From an uncultured Roseateles sp. (GTDB lineage: Bacteria; Pseudomonadota; Gammaproteobacteria; Burkholderiales; Burkholderiaceae_C): a stretch of 64,000 bases of DNA. This document shows positions 8,384-15,222 of the stretch, one piece after another. Below the pieces are notes generated by a model, which saw only the letters and a program-made list of their open reading frames with translations, was not told the origin of the DNA and did not search any database. The stretch covers positions 62,001 through 126,000 of the forward strand of contig NZ_CAMFJS010000009.1 in assembly GCF_945956965.1 (NCBI RefSeq). The letters are read 5' to 3'. A program made the translations under genes and the position numbers. Each line of letters starts with the position of its first letter. Position 1 is the first letter of the stretch.

Positions 8384-9343
8384 GTGAACACAGCCCCCCC
8401 CGCCTCTGAATCCCTGCCCGCCGCCTTCGACGCGCGCGCCTGGGTCACGCCCGAAGACCTGAATGTGACGCCCAGCCTGCTGGGCCTGCCCCTGGCCACG
8501 CCCAAACAGCGCGCATTGGCCATGGGCATTGACCTCGCGGTGCTGGTGCCCTTTTCCAATCTGGGCAATTTCTTTTTGTTGATGGCCATTGGCGCGGGCT
8601 TTTTGCTGCTGCTGCGGCACCGCGCCGCGCAAGCCAACCCTGCCGGGCCAAAGCGGCGGCAAGTGGGGCTGTGGATCTTGCTGGCTTTCAGCCTGAGCTT
8701 GGGGCTGCCGCAGGCCTGGGATGATTGGCATGCGCCCGAACCGGTCAAGTACGGCAAAGCGTTGCCGGGTGCGAGCGATGGTGAAGAGAGCGAAGATGCA
8801 CCGGCCAGTGGCGCTCAAGTTACTGCCACTGAGGTGAGTGCTGATCCGTCCGCGCCGGGTGCCTCGGCAGCCGCCGCCGCCGTCCCCGCCTCGGCCGCAG
8901 CGCTGACGGCGCAGCAGCAAGAGCAGAAGAAACAAGCGCAGCACATCGCCCGCCTGGAGGCGCAGGTCAAGGCTCAGCAAGCGGAGATCCAGGCGCATCA
9001 CTTTGACCCGCGCGCCGCGTTCAAGCGCATCGTCAACGAGGTGGGCTTGAGCTACTTCTGGGCGCTGCTCTACTTTTCCCTCCTGCCGGTCTTTTGGCCG
9101 GGCCAAACCCTGGGCAAGAAGCTGCTGGGCCTGAAGGTGGTGGAGCTGACCGGCAAGACGCTGACGCCGATGATTTGCTTCAAGCGCTATGGTGGCTACG
9201 CTGCCGGTATGGCCACGGGCATGACCGGTTTTGTTCAGCTGTTTTGGGACAGCAATCGCCAGGCGATTCAGGACAAGACGGCGCACACGGTGGTGATTGA
9301 TGCGCGGAGCAGCAAGCGGCTGGCGTTGCCGGAAGCGGCTTGA
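8384..9343 (+). CDS. RDD-family membrane protein
   Basis: This gene encodes 319 residues from GTG 8384. The RDD domain is split. The first part has PKQRALAMGIDLAVLVPFSN with the conserved Arg and Asp, then a membrane segment FFLLMAIGAGFLLLLRH. After a long Ala/Ser/Gln-rich insert with a predicted coiled-coil stretch (TAQQQEQKKQAQHIARLEAQ...) comes the second part, with PGQTLGKKLLGLKVVELTGK and the closing SNRQAIQDKTAHTVVI. RDD proteins are small multi-span membrane proteins; some act in ion transport, but most are uncharacterised. The start is uncertain: GTG 8318 would add 22 residues that look non-coding, and neither site has a clear Shine-Dalgarno. It is followed by a large repeat element. 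Confidence 0.82.
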   Translation: MNTAPPASESLPAAFDARAWVTPEDLNVTPSLLGLPLATPKQRALAMGIDLAVLVPFSNLGNFFLLMAIGAGFLLLLRHRAAQANPAGPKRRQVGLWILLAFSLSLGLPQAWDDWHAPEPVKYGKALPGASDGEESEDAPASGAQVTATEVSADPSAPGASAAAAAVPASAAALTAQQQEQKKQAQHIARLEAQVKAQQAEIQAHHFDPRAAFKRIVNEVGLSYFWALLYFSLLPVFWPGQTLGKKLLGLKVVELTGKTLTPMICFKRYGGYAAGMATGMTGFVQLFWDSNRQAIQDKTAHTVVIDARSSKRLALPEAA

Positions 9344-9407
9344 GGCTTGGTTTAGGCTTGGGGTAGGTTTCTGACTAACTGCCGGTTGGCGTGGTTGACG
9401 TTGGGTT

Positions 9408-10125
9408 GCCGGGATTTCGCCCCGGCGGGCGACCTTCTTTCTTGGGTGCCCAAGAAAGAAGGCAAAGAAGCCGCTCAGTCGCTGGCAGGCGCCTGAGCCT
9501 TCGGCAGCCGTCGCAAGCGCTGCTTGCTCGGTGCAGCCTCAGCCCCGAATGCCTGGCCCCTGCGGGGTCCGCTGCGGTGCTCGACTTTGGCGGGCCGCGC
9601 CCAACTCACTGCGCTACGCTCCGTTCAGACAAAGGGCGCGAAGTCAGCCCTTGAAGGCGCTTCGCGCCGCCCGCCAAAGCCTGCGCTCCTCGCCCAGGCA
9701 ACACGGGGAACCCCACACGGCTCGCTGCGCTTCGCCTCGGCCAAAACCAAGGCCAAACTCAAGCCGGAGCCTAAATCAAAGTCGTAGCCGTAGCCGTAGC
9801 TCTAGCTCTAGCTGCTGCCCAAGTCATCAGCGCGGCGCGTTTAGCGCGCCGCCCCTCAAGCCGATGAGCAGCGAGGCGTGACTGTATTCAGTCCCGTTGA
9901 GCCTGGGTGAGGAGCGGAAGGTTTCTTGGGCGTCGCGAAGCGACTTCAAGGGCTAGCTTCGCGCCCCTTGTTTGAACGGAGCGTAGCGCAGTGAGTTGGG
10001 CGCGGCCCAAGGAACCTGAGCACCGCAACGGACCCCGCAGGGGCCAGGCGTCGGGTCGCCTTCTTTTGCTCACTTTTCTTGGCGAAGCAAGAAAAGTGAG
10101 TCGCCCTCCGGGGCGAAATCCCGGC
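9408..10125. repeat. Palindromic repeat element, copy 1
   Basis: This is a 718-bp non-coding element. Its ends are 26-bp inverted repeats (9408-9433 and 10100-10125, 25/26 complementary, outer bases GCCGGGATTTCGCC). Just inside each end is a hairpin: 9434-9463 at the left, where CTTCTTTCTTGGG pairs with its complement, and 10069-10100 at the right, with a 13-bp perfect stem and GCGAAG loop. The two arms are inverted relatives over most of their length; the best block is 9592-9643 against 9957-10008 (50/52 complementary). A short period-6 core (about 9740-9820) separates them. A second copy lies at 13060-13769 in the same orientation. Reading frames inside it are artefacts. No transposase and no clear target duplication is visible. 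Confidence 0.85.
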
Positions 10126-10233
10126 TGGGCCTTGGCACTAGCGCCAAATGCGCGAGTACAAGGAGAGCCAGGCTAAGTGCAATGAACTCAACTCGGCGGA
10201 CGTCCGCCCGCCGACCAGTTCAACACTACAAAC

Positions 10234-11031
10234 TCAAAACGCCGGCACCACCGCGCCCTTGTACTTCGTCTCAATGAACTTCTTCACCTCAGGCGTTTGC
10301 AAGGCCGCAGCCAGCTTCTTGATGCCATCGCTGTTCTGGTTATCAGCACGCGCAACCAGGAAGTTAGCGTAAGGCGACTGCGCGCCCTCAATCGCCAGGG
10401 CGTCCTTGGCTGGGGTCAGCTTGGCTTCCAAAGCGTAGTTGGTGTTGATCAAGGCCAGGTCCACTTGGGGCAGGATGCGCGGCAGGGTGGCGGCTTCGAT
10501 TTCGCGGAACTTCAGCTTCTTGCTGTTCTCCACGATGTCTTTGGGCGTAGCCAGAATGTTGTTGATGTCCTTCAGCTTGATCACGCCAGCACGCGCGAGC
10601 AACACCAGGGCGCGGCCGCCGTTGGTGGGGTCATTGGGCAGGGCCACGGTGGCGCCCACGGGCAGGTCGGCCAGGCTCTTGTGCTTGGTCGAGTAGGCGC
10701 CGAAAGGCTCCACATGCACGGCGGCCACTGGCACCAAGTTCGTGCCCTTGCCCTTGTTGAACTCGGCCAGATAAGGCTTGTGCTGGAAGAAGTTGGCGTC
10801 CAGGCGCTTCTCGGCCACTTGCACATTGGGCTGCACATAGTCGGTGAAGACCTTGATCTCCAGCTCCACACCTTGCTGGGCCAGGCCAGGCTTGACGAAC
10901 TCCAGCAGCTCCGCATGCGGCACGGCGGTGGCGGCGATGCTCAGCTTCTCGGCCCAGGCGCTGGCGCCCAGGCTCAAGAGGGCGGCGCTCAGAACGGCGG
11001 TGAGCAGGGTCGATGGGGTCTTGCGCTTCAT
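10234..11031 (-). CDS. metQ: Methionine ABC transporter substrate-binding protein MetQ
   Basis: This gene encodes 265 residues of the NLPA/MetQ family, the periplasmic receptor for D/L-methionine. An N-terminal signal peptide (KRKTPSTLLTAVLSAALL...) ends in ASAWA. There is no lipobox Cys, so it is predicted to be a soluble periplasmic protein rather than a lipoprotein, unlike E. coli MetQ. Family features include VPHAELLEFVKPGLAQQGV, FFQHKPYLAEFN, VALPNDPTNGGRALVLL and INTNYALEA. It is the last gene of the leftward metN-metI-metQ set, with a gap of 111 bases after metI. A perfect GGCGGACGTCCGCC palindrome (10195-10208) lies just downstream and may end the transcript. Confidence 0.95.
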   Translation of the reverse strand: MKRKTPSTLLTAVLSAALLSLGASAWAEKLSIAATAVPHAELLEFVKPGLAQQGVELEIKVFTDYVQPNVQVAEKRLDANFFQHKPYLAEFNKGKGTNLVPVAAVHVEPFGAYSTKHKSLADLPVGATVALPNDPTNGGRALVLLARAGVIKLKDINNILATPKDIVENSKKLKFREIEAATLPRILPQVDLALINTNYALEAKLTPAKDALAIEGAQSPYANFLVARADNQNSDGIKKLAAALQTPEVKKFIETKYKGAVVPAF

Positions 11032-11142
11032 GTTGGTGTTCCCTTTGGATGTGGGTGAGAGAAAGGAAAAGAGGAAGAGAAAAATGAGCTTGTGGCTCGG
11101 TGGAAATCGAATGCTTGGTGTGAAACGGCTTGGCCAATCAGC

Positions 11143-11808
11143 TCAACGGCGATTCAGCCGCCTAACCGCCCAATCCCCCAGCATCTGCAGCAGCTGTACC
11201 AAGACCAAGAGCAGGGCCACGGTGACCAACATCACCTCGGTCTGGAAGCGTTGGTAGCCGAAGCGGATGGCCAGGTCACCCAGGCCGCCGCCGCCGATCA
11301 CGCCGGACATGGCGGTGTAGCCCACCAGGGTGATGGCTGTGACCGTCAGCGCCGACAAAATGCCGGGCAGGGCTTCGGGCAAAAGCGCTTGGGTGACGAT
11401 CTGGCGCGGGCTGGCGCCCATGGCAAGGCCTGCCTCAACGATGCCGCGATCCACCCCGCGCAAAGCCGCTTCCACCAATCGGGCGAAGAAGGGCGTGGCC
11501 CCCACCACCAGTGGCGGGATGGCGCCGGCCACGCCCAGCGAGGTGCCCGTCACCAGCAAGGTGAAGGGGATCAGCAAGATCAGCAGAATCACAAAGGGCA
11601 GCGAGCGCAGCACATTCACCACCAGCGAGAGCAGGCCGTAGGCGCGCGGCGAGTCCAGCAACTGGCCGCGGTCCAGCAAGAACAGCAGCACGCCCAGGGG
11701 CAGGCCCAACAGGGTGGTGAAGAGCAGGGCGCCGCCCAGCATCAGCAAGGTGTCGACGCTGGCCGTGCCGATTTCGGCCCAGTCCATGGTCAGCAGAATT
11801 TCGGTCAT
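11143..11808 (-). CDS. metI: Methionine ABC transporter permease MetI
   Basis: This gene encodes 221 residues, a typical MetI length. It is an inner-membrane permease with about five hydrophobic spans, beginning with DTLLMLGGALLFTTLLGLPLGVLLF. The EAA loop that contacts the ATPase is visible as EAGLAMGASPRQIVTQALLPEALPGIL. It forms the MetN2I2 methionine importer together with the neighbouring metN (33 bases upstream) and metQ. ATG 11806-11808 is the natural start. Confidence 0.95.
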   Translation of the reverse strand: MTEILLTMDWAEIGTASVDTLLMLGGALLFTTLLGLPLGVLLFLLDRGQLLDSPRAYGLLSLVVNVLRSLPFVILLILLIPFTLLVTGTSLGVAGAIPPLVVGATPFFARLVEAALRGVDRGIVEAGLAMGASPRQIVTQALLPEALPGILSALTVTAITLVGYTAMSGVIGGGGLGDLAIRFGYQRFQTEVMLVTVALLLVLVQLLQMLGDWAVRRLNRR

Positions 11809-11841
11809 GGTTCTTACTTTTTCTTCTTGTTGTCAGGGCAA

Positions 11842-12870
11842 TCAGCGCAGCACTTCAACGCGCACGCCGCGCTCGGCCAGCAGGGCTTGCGCGCCGGCCA
11901 AGTCACCGCCCGTAACGGCAATCGTTAGCTGACCGTAGGGCGTGCTTTTGATGCGGTCGATGCGGCCATGCAAGATGCCGAAGTCGATGCCGCTGCGCCG
12001 CGCCACCTCGCCCAGCAAGGGCTCGTAGGTGTGCTCGCCCTGGAAGGTCAGGCGCAGTAAGCGGCCTGGTACATGGGCGTAGTCTTCGTTCAGCTCGTTC
12101 TCGTCGATCTTTTCGGCTTCTTGCACAAAGCGGCGCGTCACCGCGTGCTGGGGATGCAAAAAGACCTCGGCCACCGGGCCAACTTCTACCACCCGCCCGA
12201 CCTCCAGCACCGCCACCCGGTCGCAGATGCGGCGCACCACATCCATCTCGTGGGTGATCAGCACAATGGCCAGTCCCAGCTCGCGGTTCAGCTGGGCCAG
12301 CAGGTCCAGGATGGCGCGGGTGGTTTGCGGGTCCAGCGCGCTGGTGGCTTCGTCGCACAGCAGCAGCTCCGGGCCGGTGGCCAGGGCGCGGGCAATGCCC
12401 ACGCGCTGTTTTTGTCCGCCCGAAAGCTGAGTCGGATATTTGTGGCCCTGGTCGGCCAGGCCCACGCGGGCCAGCAGTTCCGCCACTCGCGGCGCGATCT
12501 TCTCGGTGGGCCAGTGGGCGATGCGCAGCGGCCAGGCGATGTTCTCGGCCACGGTGCGCGAGCCCAGCAAATTGAAGTGCTGAAAAATCATGCCGATGCG
12601 CTGGCGTGCGCTGCGCAGCTGCGCGTCGTCCAGGCTCAGCAGGTCTTGGCCGGCAACGCGCACACTGCCGCTGTCGGGCCGCTCCAGCAGATTGAGCACG
12701 CGCAGCAAGGTGGATTTGCCCGCGCCCGAGTGCCCGATGATGCCGAACACTTCGCCCGCTTTGACGCTGAGGCTGATGCCGTCCAGCGCGGTGACGACTT
12801 GTTTTGCGTCGCTGCAGCCGCCTTTTTTGTTGGCGCCGAAGCGTTTATGAATGTCTTGGAGTTCGATCAC
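11842..12870 (-). CDS. metN: Methionine ABC transporter ATP-binding protein MetN
   Basis: This gene encodes 342 residues. Walker A is GHSGAGKST, the ABC signature is [15 protein letters not shown], and Walker B with switch is [12 protein letters not shown]...LITHEMD. The C-terminal 100 residues form the NIL regulatory domain that binds methionine and inhibits transport in MetN proteins. The start is GTG at 12868-12870 and no good Shine-Dalgarno precedes it, because the upstream message is C-rich. An unusual 13-residue insert with Lys and Cys ([13 protein letters not shown]) sits after the first strand. A weak promoter-like pair, TTGGGG and TAGGAT spaced 16 bp on the minus strand, lies upstream. 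Confidence 0.95.
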
Positions 12871-12959
12871 GGGGGAGGGAGGGGGCGTTCAGGTGGGCTG
12901 GGGGCGCCCGACCTTTTTGGGCTAAGGCAGCCATCCTAGTGAAAACCCTCGATTCCCCA

Positions 12960-12986
12960 AGAATTCATTGGTAATAAGCAAATTCT
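12960..12986. promoter_or_regulatory. AGAATT/AATTCT inverted repeat upstream of metN
   Basis: A perfect 6-bp inverted repeat (12960-12965 and 12981-12986) with a 15-bp spacer sits in the only AT-rich stretch between metN and the second repeat element, about 90 bases from the metN start. It could be an operator for methionine-responsive control, but it matches no site I can name. Confidence 0.25.
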
Positions 12987-13059
12987 GGGCGATTGGTGGA
13001 GTTGGGGCTTGGGTGCTTTTGGGCTGGTTGAGCGAGGGTGGGCTTGTGTGAAGGGTGGT

Positions 13060-13769
13060 GCCGGGATTTCGCCCCGGCAGGCGACCTTCTTTCTTGGGCG
13101 CCCAAGAAAGAAGGCAAAGAAACCGCCCCGAATGCCTGGCCCCTTCGGGGTCCGCTGCGGTGCTCGACTTTGGCGGGCCGCGCCCAACTCACTGCGCTAC
13201 GCTCCGTTCAGACAAAGGGCGCGAAGTCAGCCCTTGAAGGCGCTTCGCGCCGCCCGCCAAAGCCTGCGCTCCTCGCCCAGGCAACACGGGGAACCCCACA
13301 CGGCTCGCTACGCGTCGCCTCGGTCGAAAACCAAAACCAAAACCAAAACCAAAACCAAAGCTAAAGCTAAAGCTAAAGCTAAAGCTAAAGCCAAGGCCAA
13401 GGCCAAGGCCAAACTCAAGCCGAAACCAAAGTCGTAGCCGTAGCCGTAGTTGTCGCCGACGCCGACGCCATCAGCGCGGCGCGTTTAGCGCGCCGCCCCT
13501 CAAGCCGATGCGCAGCGAGGCGTGACTGTCTTCAGTCCCGTTGAGCCTGGGTGAGGAGCGGAAGGTTTCTTGGGCGTCGCGAAGCGACTTCAAGGGCTAG
13601 CTTCGCGCCCCTTGTTTGAACGGAGCGTAGCGCAGTGAGTTGGGCGCGGCCCAAGGAACCTGAGCACCGCAACGGACCCCGCAGGGGCCAGGCGTCGGGT
13701 CGCCTTCTTTTGCTTACTTTTCTTGGCGAAGCAAGAAAAGTGAGTCGCCCGCCGGGGCGAAATCCCGGC
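13060..13769. repeat. Palindromic repeat element, copy 2
   Basis: This is a 710-bp element in the same orientation as copy 1. Terminal inverted repeats are 13060-13085 and 13744-13769. The right arm (13469-13769) differs from the copy-1 right arm at 4 of 301 positions with no indel. The left-arm block 13126-13323 differs at 3 of 198. Copy 1 carries about 70 extra bases near 9471-9542, while copy 2 has a much longer hexanucleotide core. Beyond the right end, AACCCAAC is the inverse of GTTGGGTT just outside the left end of copy 1. The pair brackets metNIQ. No protein of its own is encoded. Confidence 0.85.
13327..13446 (+). repeat. Drifting hexanucleotide array in repeat element copy 2
   Basis: Twenty consecutive hexamers in one phase: AAAACC x5, AAAGCT x5, AAAGCC x1, AAGGCC x3, then six diverged units ending in TAGCCG x2. 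The array sits exactly between the two inverted arms. Read in one frame it would give Lys-Thr/Lys-Ala repeats, but there is no gene context for translation. Confidence 0.9.
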
Positions 13770-13840
13770 AACCCAACTTCGACTCAACCAACCTGAAGTT
13801 AGACCACCAAGAACAAAGGCAACTACACCCGTCTCGGCCT

Positions 13841-14215
13841 TCAAGGCAAGAAGAAATACACCTCCGCAATCAAGCCCTCCCGGCATCGATACACCACCGC
13901 CACCTGCTGCACACCCTCACCCCGGCCATGCACCCGCTCATGGTCAATCACCGTATCGCCCATCACGATGCGCTGTGTCACTTCCGCCTGCACTTGCGGG
14001 GCGGCAAAAGGGCCTTGGCGGTAAAGCTCACGAAAGGCCGCGCGGCCTTGCAACTGCGGCTCCAAGGGCAATTGCGCCGCGCCGTTGGCCAAGCGCCAAA
14101 CCCGCACATCCTCGCTGTAGCAGGCCACAAAGGCCTCCAGATCCTTCGCGTTGTAGGCCAGCAATTGGGCTTGGGCCAGTTCTTCCGCCGTACGCACCAT
14201 CGTCGTCTTGCTCAT
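13841..14215 (-). CDS. SnoaL-like / NTF2-fold protein
   Basis: This gene encodes 124 residues. The pattern AQLLAYNAKDLEAFVACYSEDVRVW, then LQGRAAFRELY, and the C-terminal VVYRCREGLIAEVYFF fits the SnoaL-like/steroid-isomerase-like NTF2 superfamily, small cone-shaped domains that bind hydrophobic ligands or act as isomerases. The substrate is unknown. The start ATG 14213-14215 was chosen because GGAGG lies 8 bases upstream; several earlier in-frame ATGs lack this. It is downstream of the K+ channel gene on the same strand with a gap of about 35 bases, so the two may be co-transcribed. Confidence 0.8.
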   Translation of the reverse strand: MSKTTMVRTAEELAQAQLLAYNAKDLEAFVACYSEDVRVWRLANGAAQLPLEPQLQGRAAFRELYRQGPFAAPQVQAEVTQRIVMGDTVIDHERVHGRGEGVQQVAVVYRCREGLIAEVYFFLP

Positions 14216-14250
14216 CCCCTGGGCCTCCATCGATTCACTCATTCGTTCAT

Positions 14251-15222
14251 TCACTCGCTGTGATACGCGGGCAACTTAGCCCCGCAGTTGCGGCAAAACT
14301 TCGAGTCCGGTTGATGCCCCTCGGTCAGGCACTCATGGCAGGTGCGCGTTGTCGTCTTGGGTGGGAACTGAAAGCGCTGGGCGCTCATCTCGGCCGTCAC
14401 GATGCCGGTCGGCACCGCCAGCACGCCCCAGCCCATCAACATCATCAGCGAGGCAATCGCGCGGCCCAAATCCGTCTTGGGCGTCAGGTCGCCATAGCCC
14501 ACCGTGGTCAGCGTGGTGATGGCCCAGTACACGCCCACCGGGATGCTGGTGAAACCATGCTCCGGCCCCTCCACGATGAACATCACCGTGCCCATGATCA
14601 GCACCACCATCAGCACGGCCGACAAGAACACAAAAATCTTGCGCCCGCTGGCTCGCAAGGCCCGGCCCAGGCTGATGTATTCCTGCAGATAAGCCTGCAG
14701 CTTGAGGATACGAAACACCCGCATCAGGCGCAGCACCCGCACATCCACCAGCGCATACAAGCTGGGCTCAAAAATCGCGAGGTAAGTGGGCAGCACCGCC
14801 AGCAAATCCACCAGGCCGTAAAAGCTCAGCGCATAGCGCAGCGGGTGGCGCACACACAGCAGGCGCAAGACGTACTCCGCCGTGAAGGCCGCGGTGAAGA
14901 AATACTCAAAGCCCGTGAGCCAGGGGCCGTAGCGGCTGCGCAAATTGCCCACGCTTTCCAGCATCACCAGGGCCACGCTCAGCAGCACCATCAGGATCAG
15001 CGCCAAATCAAAGCGCCGCCCGGCCCGCGTGTCGGCCTCAAAAATGATGGTGTAGCAACGCAGGCGCCAGCCGCTCAGGGGCTTACCGAATTCGTTAGGT
15101 GAGGTGCTGCCGGCTGCATTGGCTGCAGCGGCTCTGCCTGCGCCGGCCCGAGCGGCCGAAGGCTGGTGCGCCGCAGGGGCGGCGGAAGTGCGAGAAGCGG
15201 GGGAGGAATTTTTGCGCGCCAT
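14251..15222 (-). CDS. Voltage-gated K+ channel-like ion transporter with C-terminal zinc ribbon
   Basis: This gene encodes 323 residues. After a disordered Ala/Ser-rich N-terminus (about 1-50) come S1-S4 spans. S4 is RVLRLMRVFRILKL (162-175) with Arg every third residue, typical of voltage sensors. S5, the pore helix and the selectivity filter TTVGYGD (239-245) follow, then S6 with VPTGIVTAEM. The TVGYGD filter indicates K+ selectivity. The tail has C295-x2-C298 and C310-x2-C313, a zinc-ribbon pattern (CHEC...CRNC). A short cytoplasmic zinc ribbon after S6 is seen in some bacterial Kv-like proteins but is not a classical RCK or cNMP domain. The gene precedes the SnoaL-like gene. Confidence 0.92.
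   Translation of the reverse strand: MARKNSSPASRTSAAPAAHQPSAARAGAGRAAAANAAGSTSPNEFGKPLSGWRLRCYTIIFEADTRAGRRFDLALILMVLLSVALVMLESVGNLRSRYGPWLTGFEYFFTAAFTAEYVLRLLCVRHPLRYALSFYGLVDLLAVLPTYLAIFEPSLYALVDVRVLRLMRVFRILKLQAYLQEYISLGRALRASGRKIFVFLSAVLMVVLIMGTVMFIVEGPEHGFTSIPVGVYWAITTLTTVGYGDLTPKTDLGRAIASLMMLMGWGVLAVPTGIVTAEMSAQRFQFPPKTTTRTCHECLTEGHQPDSKFCRNCGAKLPAYHSE

Follow-up and report, generated by a model that had tools for sequence, protein, structure and literature searches.

Palindromic DNA elements with paired arms of predicted conserved fold and, in relatives, differing interiors flank a methionine-uptake operon in a Roseateles genome

Integron cassettes stand in tandem, each with one attC site, beside an integrase gene, and the repetitive extragenic palindromic sequences and bacterial interspersed mosaic elements (REP/BIME) are palindromes of 20-40 bp beside a Y1 transposase (RAYT). 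Other systems come closer to the elements studied here. The minimal mobile elements of Neisseria are whole-gene cassettes that differ between strains, lie between the same two conserved genes and are ascribed to homologous recombination (PMC3898611). Correia elements and other bacterial miniature inverted-repeat transposable elements (MITEs) are non-autonomous repeats of 100-155 bp (PMC3898611, PMC2229807), and Tn3-derived inverted-repeat miniature elements (TIMEs) are bounded by Tn3-type ends of 38 bp and show duplications of 5 or 6 bp (PMC4133298). The intergenic repeat families of Pseudomonas fluorescens and the Ppu-1 repeat of P. putida are described as dispersed, some longer than 300 bp and some with inverted repeats (PMC2718517, PMC2267715). 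We analysed a stretch of 64,000 nucleotides from an uncultured Roseateles sp. (contig NZ_CAMFJS010000009.1, positions 62,001 to 126,000), here called the window, in which two direct copies of a palindromic element, A (9408-10125) and B (13060-13769), lie in the same orientation on either side of the methionine-uptake genes metQ, metI and metN.

We consider it somewhat probable that A and B are cargo-free copies of a non-autonomous palindromic family in which fold-bearing arms stand around an exchangeable interior. A preliminary description of the window, made from its letters, had reported two copies in the same orientation with inversely related arms, differing cores and no transposase, and our comparison bears this out. 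The right arms of A and B are 98.7% identical over 299 bases and the left arms 98.5% over 199 bases, with a further 95.5% over the first 67. Within one element, the left and right arms are inverted copies of each other, 79-85% complementary over 157-192 bases. The cores are low-complexity repeats unlike each other, and no transposase gene was found in A or B. The terminal repeats of 26 bp also reported there stand as matches, since the 26 outermost bases of each end agree at 25 positions, but not as the limits of the element: the true ends probably lie further out than the GCCGGG...CCCGGC tip, because near-identical copies in a relative (loci L269 and L271) run about 130 and 95 bases past it. 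A-left and B-right have about 30 further bases in common outside the tip, and TA stands beside several ends, among them both inferred ends of A, which would give A a TA on each side.

A and B belong to a widespread family of bacterial DNA elements that is apparently unnamed. Their own genome has five loci, two on contig C9 (A and B) and one each on C7, C19 and C32, that on C7 being a single arm beside a GNAT gene. Arms were matched in 23 of the 39 genomes searched and in 15 of 18 within the genus (the own genome counted in both). The proposal of a distinct repeat family is supported by this distribution: the arms are present in other genomes, and no named insertion sequence (IS) of which they might be degenerate leftovers was found in what was searched. 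L269 and L271, both in the genus genome G010, are 96% identical over 814 bases and lie at different sites. A search of ten genus genomes with the outer ends of L269, which was not exhaustive, gave strong matches only in G010 and no recognised autonomous element; the loci retrieved were checked for element matches, not systematically for transposase genes. Transposase-like sequences were seen next to an element end in G010 (L348, 6400-7340) and between two arms in L182 (1714-2545). These may be IS3- and IS110-like; the frame examined in L348 has stops, and L182 has no Pfam match.

A pattern scan, in which the pattern itself fixes CTTTCTT, AAGAAAG and GCAAAG, returned at least 119 stretches and, among the matches listed, 80 loci; these include Roseateles, Cupriavidus, Zoogloea, Variovorax, Haemophilus, Rodentibacter, Lysobacter, Pseudomonas and others. 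Within the class, a model of the arm tip matched 93 of 369 genomes, counting the own genome, and these fell in 77 of the 272 genera. In plasmid and phage records, the window element gave only short matches (two plasmid and two phage records), and the Haemophilus element had no match in phage records. No family name was found in the literature searched, which lacked most subscription papers, and the letters of the tip motif matched there only an unrelated worm paper. Rfam gave no match at gathering score in 29 loci, and for window positions 9000-14400 with E values up to 5 it returned only Pseudomon-groES (24 bits against 50) and SNORD48 (17 against 36). Another genus of the family (G022, L122-L145) carries many elements with a related arm body and a different tip; 20 of its loci have no tip-model match, so that the tip is not universal. 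The tip motif also stood in contigs of metagenome-assembled genomes labelled Oscillospiraceae and Clostridia (L207 and L214), through contamination or wider spread; both were excluded from the tip model and included in the tip tests.

The arms, about 0.26 kb long, occur mostly as outward-facing inverted pairs. Neighbouring tip-model matches faced outward in 58 of 63 pairs, from 57 of 98 loci with at least two matches, most of the 98 having been found through the pattern or the tip model. For this count, full-length and end-cut matches were retained, and reverse matches that were partial (positions 20-51 or less) or, in L399, overlapping were excluded. In 20 inspected sources, the arms faced each other in pairs, the exceptions being L017 with one arm and L059 with an extra partial arm, and the interiors ranged from fewer than 10 bases to about 2.1 kb. 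Long interiors held open frames and had lower GC. Pfam matches were found for five of ten interior proteins (GNAT, Ivy, DUF4326, DUF4440/SnoaL and DUF4357), and a DUF488 protein adjoins the DUF4326 protein. PADLOC matched the DUF4357 protein as candidate PDC-S14 (E ~1e-105) and the DUF488 protein as PDC-M45C, and gave weak TIR-like and HNH-type matches as well; six of the ten proteins had no match, and these names are candidate labels only. Elements outside the genus enclosed an HNH gene and an ion-channel-like gene. As in A and B, the inspected interiors lay between terminal inverted repeats with no transposase gene inside. By their sequence, A and B appear to be cargo-free members of this larger family.

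Flank comparison showed several loci to be one and the same site. One of these, S1, is the interval between a biotin-synthase-like gene (bioB) and a biotin carboxylase gene, and was read in 16 matching genus genomes of the 18 searched. S1 was empty in three genomes (62-68 bp between the genes), held two arms around an interior in five, and held one arm and the same GNAT gene in two (the own genome and G007). G010 had another gene and a cargo-free element, G011 a partial arm, and in G014 the contig ends inside. The seven arm-bearing genomes had six unrelated interiors, only those of the own genome (G000) and G007 being alike; the interiors of G003 and G006 had pieces of 19-25 residues in common. 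GC was 0.51-0.54 in the interiors, compared with 0.63-0.66 outside. The left arms at S1 had a mean identity of 94.3% across five species, whereas the left and right arms of one element were 88.4% identical and S1 left arms were 82.4% identical to arms at other sites. The inner arm boundary was sharp on the left in four aligned elements. Because the left arms are more alike across species than to their own partners or to arms of other sites, the arms at S1 look resident while the interior changed.

Like the Neisseria minimal mobile elements, S1 has alternative gene cassettes between the same conserved genes. In the Neisseria system, the cassette lies directly between those genes with no dispersed repeat of its own, whereas the cassettes described here are flanked by a dispersed repeat that has a conserved fold and reaches new sites. 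Correia elements and other MITEs are non-autonomous as well, but the arms here are longer, structured and able to enclose genes. With TIMEs and mobile insertion cassettes our elements have in common inverted ends that lack a transposase gene and can bound other genes; the 5- or 6-bp duplications of TIMEs were not seen here. The Pseudomonas families and Ppu-1 may overlap with ours; the tip motif occurs in a Pseudomonas record (L176). In contrast to the tandem arrangement of integron cassettes, each interior here is enclosed by an inverted pair of arms (no search for the integrase itself was made), and the arms differ in length from REP/BIME. On these comparisons, the family appears to exchange genes like a minimal mobile element and to have the form of a MITE or insertion cassette, with the dispersed repeat setting it off from the former.

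The arms are predicted to be structured, with a conserved fold that forms better on the outward strand. RNAalifold assigned 45 pairs to 44 aligned arms (of 50, filtered from 58), and 16 of the pairs had double compensatory changes. Fresh folding of the same arms gave -75.0 kcal/mol outward against -60.3 inward, and folding of 26 arm cores from G022 (distinct rows of 36 extracted) gave -36.1 against -27.2 kcal/mol. Single-sequence folds of three strands fell below shuffles (z of -3.7, -3.0 and -1.9). On the outward strand, the tip consists of TCGCC, a linker such as TTCTTTTGC, and a hairpin with a GGCGA loop and a purine-rich 3' strand (AAGAAAAG); the tip alignment kept 35 of 42 tips (from 180) and a shorter window piece. 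In 112 distinct tips, complementarity between the loop and the segment beside the linker averaged 4.59 against 3.65, and none of 500 permutations reached it. The linker contains a mirror image of the stem purine tract that adjoins the loop (mean 6.11 against 4.68 in 114 tips, with a maximum of 5.04 in 500 permutations), with a mirrored run of at least 4 in 105 of 114 tips and 13 starting patterns. We treat these permutations as guides rather than exact probabilities, because the sets mix related sequences and 80 loci come from a fixed-motif pattern. The mirrored tract fits an H-type pseudoknot whose stem is accompanied by a third strand of pyrimidines, and the tip carries the signature of a pseudoknot with a major-groove triple helix.

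H-type pseudoknots with a major-groove triplex are found in telomerase RNA and SAM-II. The guanidine-III riboswitch is likewise described as an H-type pseudoknot with a triple helix (PMC5696562). The arm tips are alike in both features, which here are predicted. We know of no RNA triplex pseudoknot that bounds a mobile or cargo-swapping DNA element on both sides. Neither the conserved fold nor the exchange of cargo in relatives figured in the preliminary description.

The three genes between A and B (named by their best NCBIfam matches, all under curated cut-offs) had been regarded as exactly enclosed by the elements. They do lie between them, but the idea that the pair and the operon form one unit is not supported. 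We ruled out metNIQ as the cargo of a composite element, because G010 has the same gene order (RDD gene, metQ, metI, metN, SnoaL-like gene, channel gene) and no element-like sequence on either flank. A and B thus appear to flank a resident operon, having been inserted beside it, or lost in G010. Elements flank the met operon on both sides in G008 and G004. In G008, the two are inverted relative to each other, and its B is reversed compared with that of the window. Deletion of metNIQ by recombination would be possible only in the arrangement of the window, because the G008 pair is inverted; loss or amplification of the operon, which the preliminary description had foreseen, would not be a risk common to relatives, as orientation differs. 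In the window, the arms of A and B are 97.7% and 98.5% alike, compared with 92.7% and 90.2% for their G008 counterparts, and the B-left arm is 99.2% like G008 A-left and 92.0% like the L-type arm of G008's B. Because B-left resembles G008 A-left and the window arms are more alike than those of G008, B seems to have changed after the divergence from G008, either by flipping or by being overwritten from A. This apparent homogenisation of the arms supports the earlier idea of gene conversion.

The paired architecture, the compensatory changes, the covariation of loop and linker, the copies at different sites, the empty sites and the different interiors at one site are read from the sequences, and they suggest the following model. 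Each element would consist of two inverted arms around an exchangeable interior, and every arm would encode one common folded nucleic acid. In the outward direction, this would begin with a branched body that shows covariation, continue into an H-type pseudoknot with the pyrimidine-rich linker as third strand along the hairpin stem, and close with a GC hairpin at the tip. The elements would spread through an enzyme that acts in trans and recognises the ends or the fold. Once an element is seated, homologous recombination through the common arms could exchange its interior for that of a second element, making it a dock for gene exchange, and the same process may have homogenised A and B and flipped or overwritten the interior of B. 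The fold could serve in recognition or protect the end of a transcript, and the terminator-like hairpins that all four tips of A and B show when read inward would insulate the interior. The met operon would be merely bracketed.

An unseen IS transposase could instead move arms and cargo as ordinary MITE-like elements or insertion cassettes, with the different interiors at one site arising from separate insertions into a preferred target. Such movement would agree with the terminal symmetry, the lack of a transposase in A and B, the near-identical copies at different sites with TA next to several ends, and cargo bounded by ends, as in TIMEs. It does not account for S1 left arms that are far more alike across species than to their own partner arms while the interiors are unrelated, and the folded arms exceed the usual transposase binding site, which is shorter than 0.26 kb. 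We regard it as rather unlikely. Distinctly improbable, in our judgement, is that the arms are only bidirectional transcription insulators between genes and that cargo is replaced through ordinary homologous recombination in the genes alongside, the process proposed for minimal mobile elements. The terminator-like tips and the gene turnover at S1 without arms speak for it, but the terminator-like matches are a weak excess (10 against 6.0, sd 2.4, in shuffles), and the copies at new sites and the mirrored covariation of linker and stem are left unexplained. Several observations weigh against the favoured model itself. No transposase or recombinase could be linked to the family, and at the ends compared no target-site duplication was proven, only TA. 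S1 holds other genes and no arm in G004, G008 and G009 (an open frame of 578-607 codons), its interval gains and loses genes across the genus even without arms (L017, L382-L396), and the G003 interior lacks a clear gene. On the right side of S1, three genomes have about 45 further bases in common, and one right arm (S1_G005_R) is foreign, the right arms being 87.7% identical with it and 92.4% without it. In a tree, the S1 left arms form a grade and no supported clade. At site S2, the right arms share 89.1% identity, no more than arms of different sites do (90.1%), which also speaks for the MITE-like alternative.

The fold is open to a further alternative, in which a recombinase or replication enzyme would read the arms as single-stranded DNA (attC-like or triplex-forming sites) and the arms would not work as RNA. 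A mirror repeat with a palindrome also fits an intramolecular DNA triplex, G-T pairs form in DNA as well, and the support for RNA comes here from sequence. The preference for one strand and the loop-linker pseudoknot are typical of RNA, though not exclusive to it, and we think single-stranded DNA possible but doubtful. Read inward, 36 pairs had 1 G-U and 20 A-C cells, which would place wobble pairs on the outward strand, but this count alone is weak, because nine left-out pairs carry 73 G-U and 2 A-C cells; with helices of at least 4 pairs, the count is 28 against 20. The pattern behind 80 of the tip loci fixes part of the stem and linker and leaves the loop free.

If docking of exchangeable interiors is right, about a quarter of the sampled genomes of the class have a so far unrecognised means of exchanging accessory genes, and the arms make up a new family of structured nucleic acids, with a triple-helix pseudoknot that is open to direct testing. 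The family may account for orphan intergenic repeats and spurious short open reading frames, and its paired tips could be used to find new cargo genes, of which a few resemble candidate phage-defence genes. Only tentatively do we suggest a portable dock of the Gammaproteobacteria (in the GTDB sense), in which two inverted copies of an ornate RNA or single-stranded DNA, each with a triple-helix pseudoknot at its end, enclose accessory genes and the fold is the signal for their capture and replacement. Were this true, the enclosed genes, partly like candidate defence genes, would be served by an integron-like function built without integron parts.

Table 1. Coordinates of elements A and B, their parts and the intervening operon in the window
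Feature	Position	Strand	Remarks
Element A with possible outer ends	9378..10138		boundary inferred; TA at 9376-9377 and 10139-10140
A left arm	9408..9740		tip hairpins, then arm; extra stretch 9475-9541
A right arm	9827..10125		
A core	9741..9826		hexamer-like low-complexity repeats, no credible gene seen
A-left tip	9409..9481	-	outward-reading match to tip model R1 (G000:C9:71409-71481)
A-right tip	10050..10124	+	TCGCC 10056-10060, U-rich linker 10061-10069, hairpin with GGCGA loop to 10100
Element B	13060..13799		right outer end inferred at TA 13800-13801; left outer end undefined
B left arm	13060..13323		
B right arm	13471..13769		
B core	13324..13470		CCAAAA/AAAGCT/AAGGCC repeats and GC hairpin
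B-left tip	13061..13133	-	outward-reading match to tip model R1 (G000:C9:75061-75133)
B-right tip	13694..13768	+	TCGCC 13700-13704, linker 13705-13713, hairpin to 13744, then GCCGGG..CCCGGC hairpin
metN-metI-metQ	10234..12870	-	resident neighbour, not cargo; G010 locus element-free

The left arm of A has about 67 bases (9475-9541), just inside the tip hairpin, that B does not have. Upstream of metN, a stretch at about 12948-12987 is kept in all four genomes compared; it is possibly a control region of metN, with B inserted beyond it.

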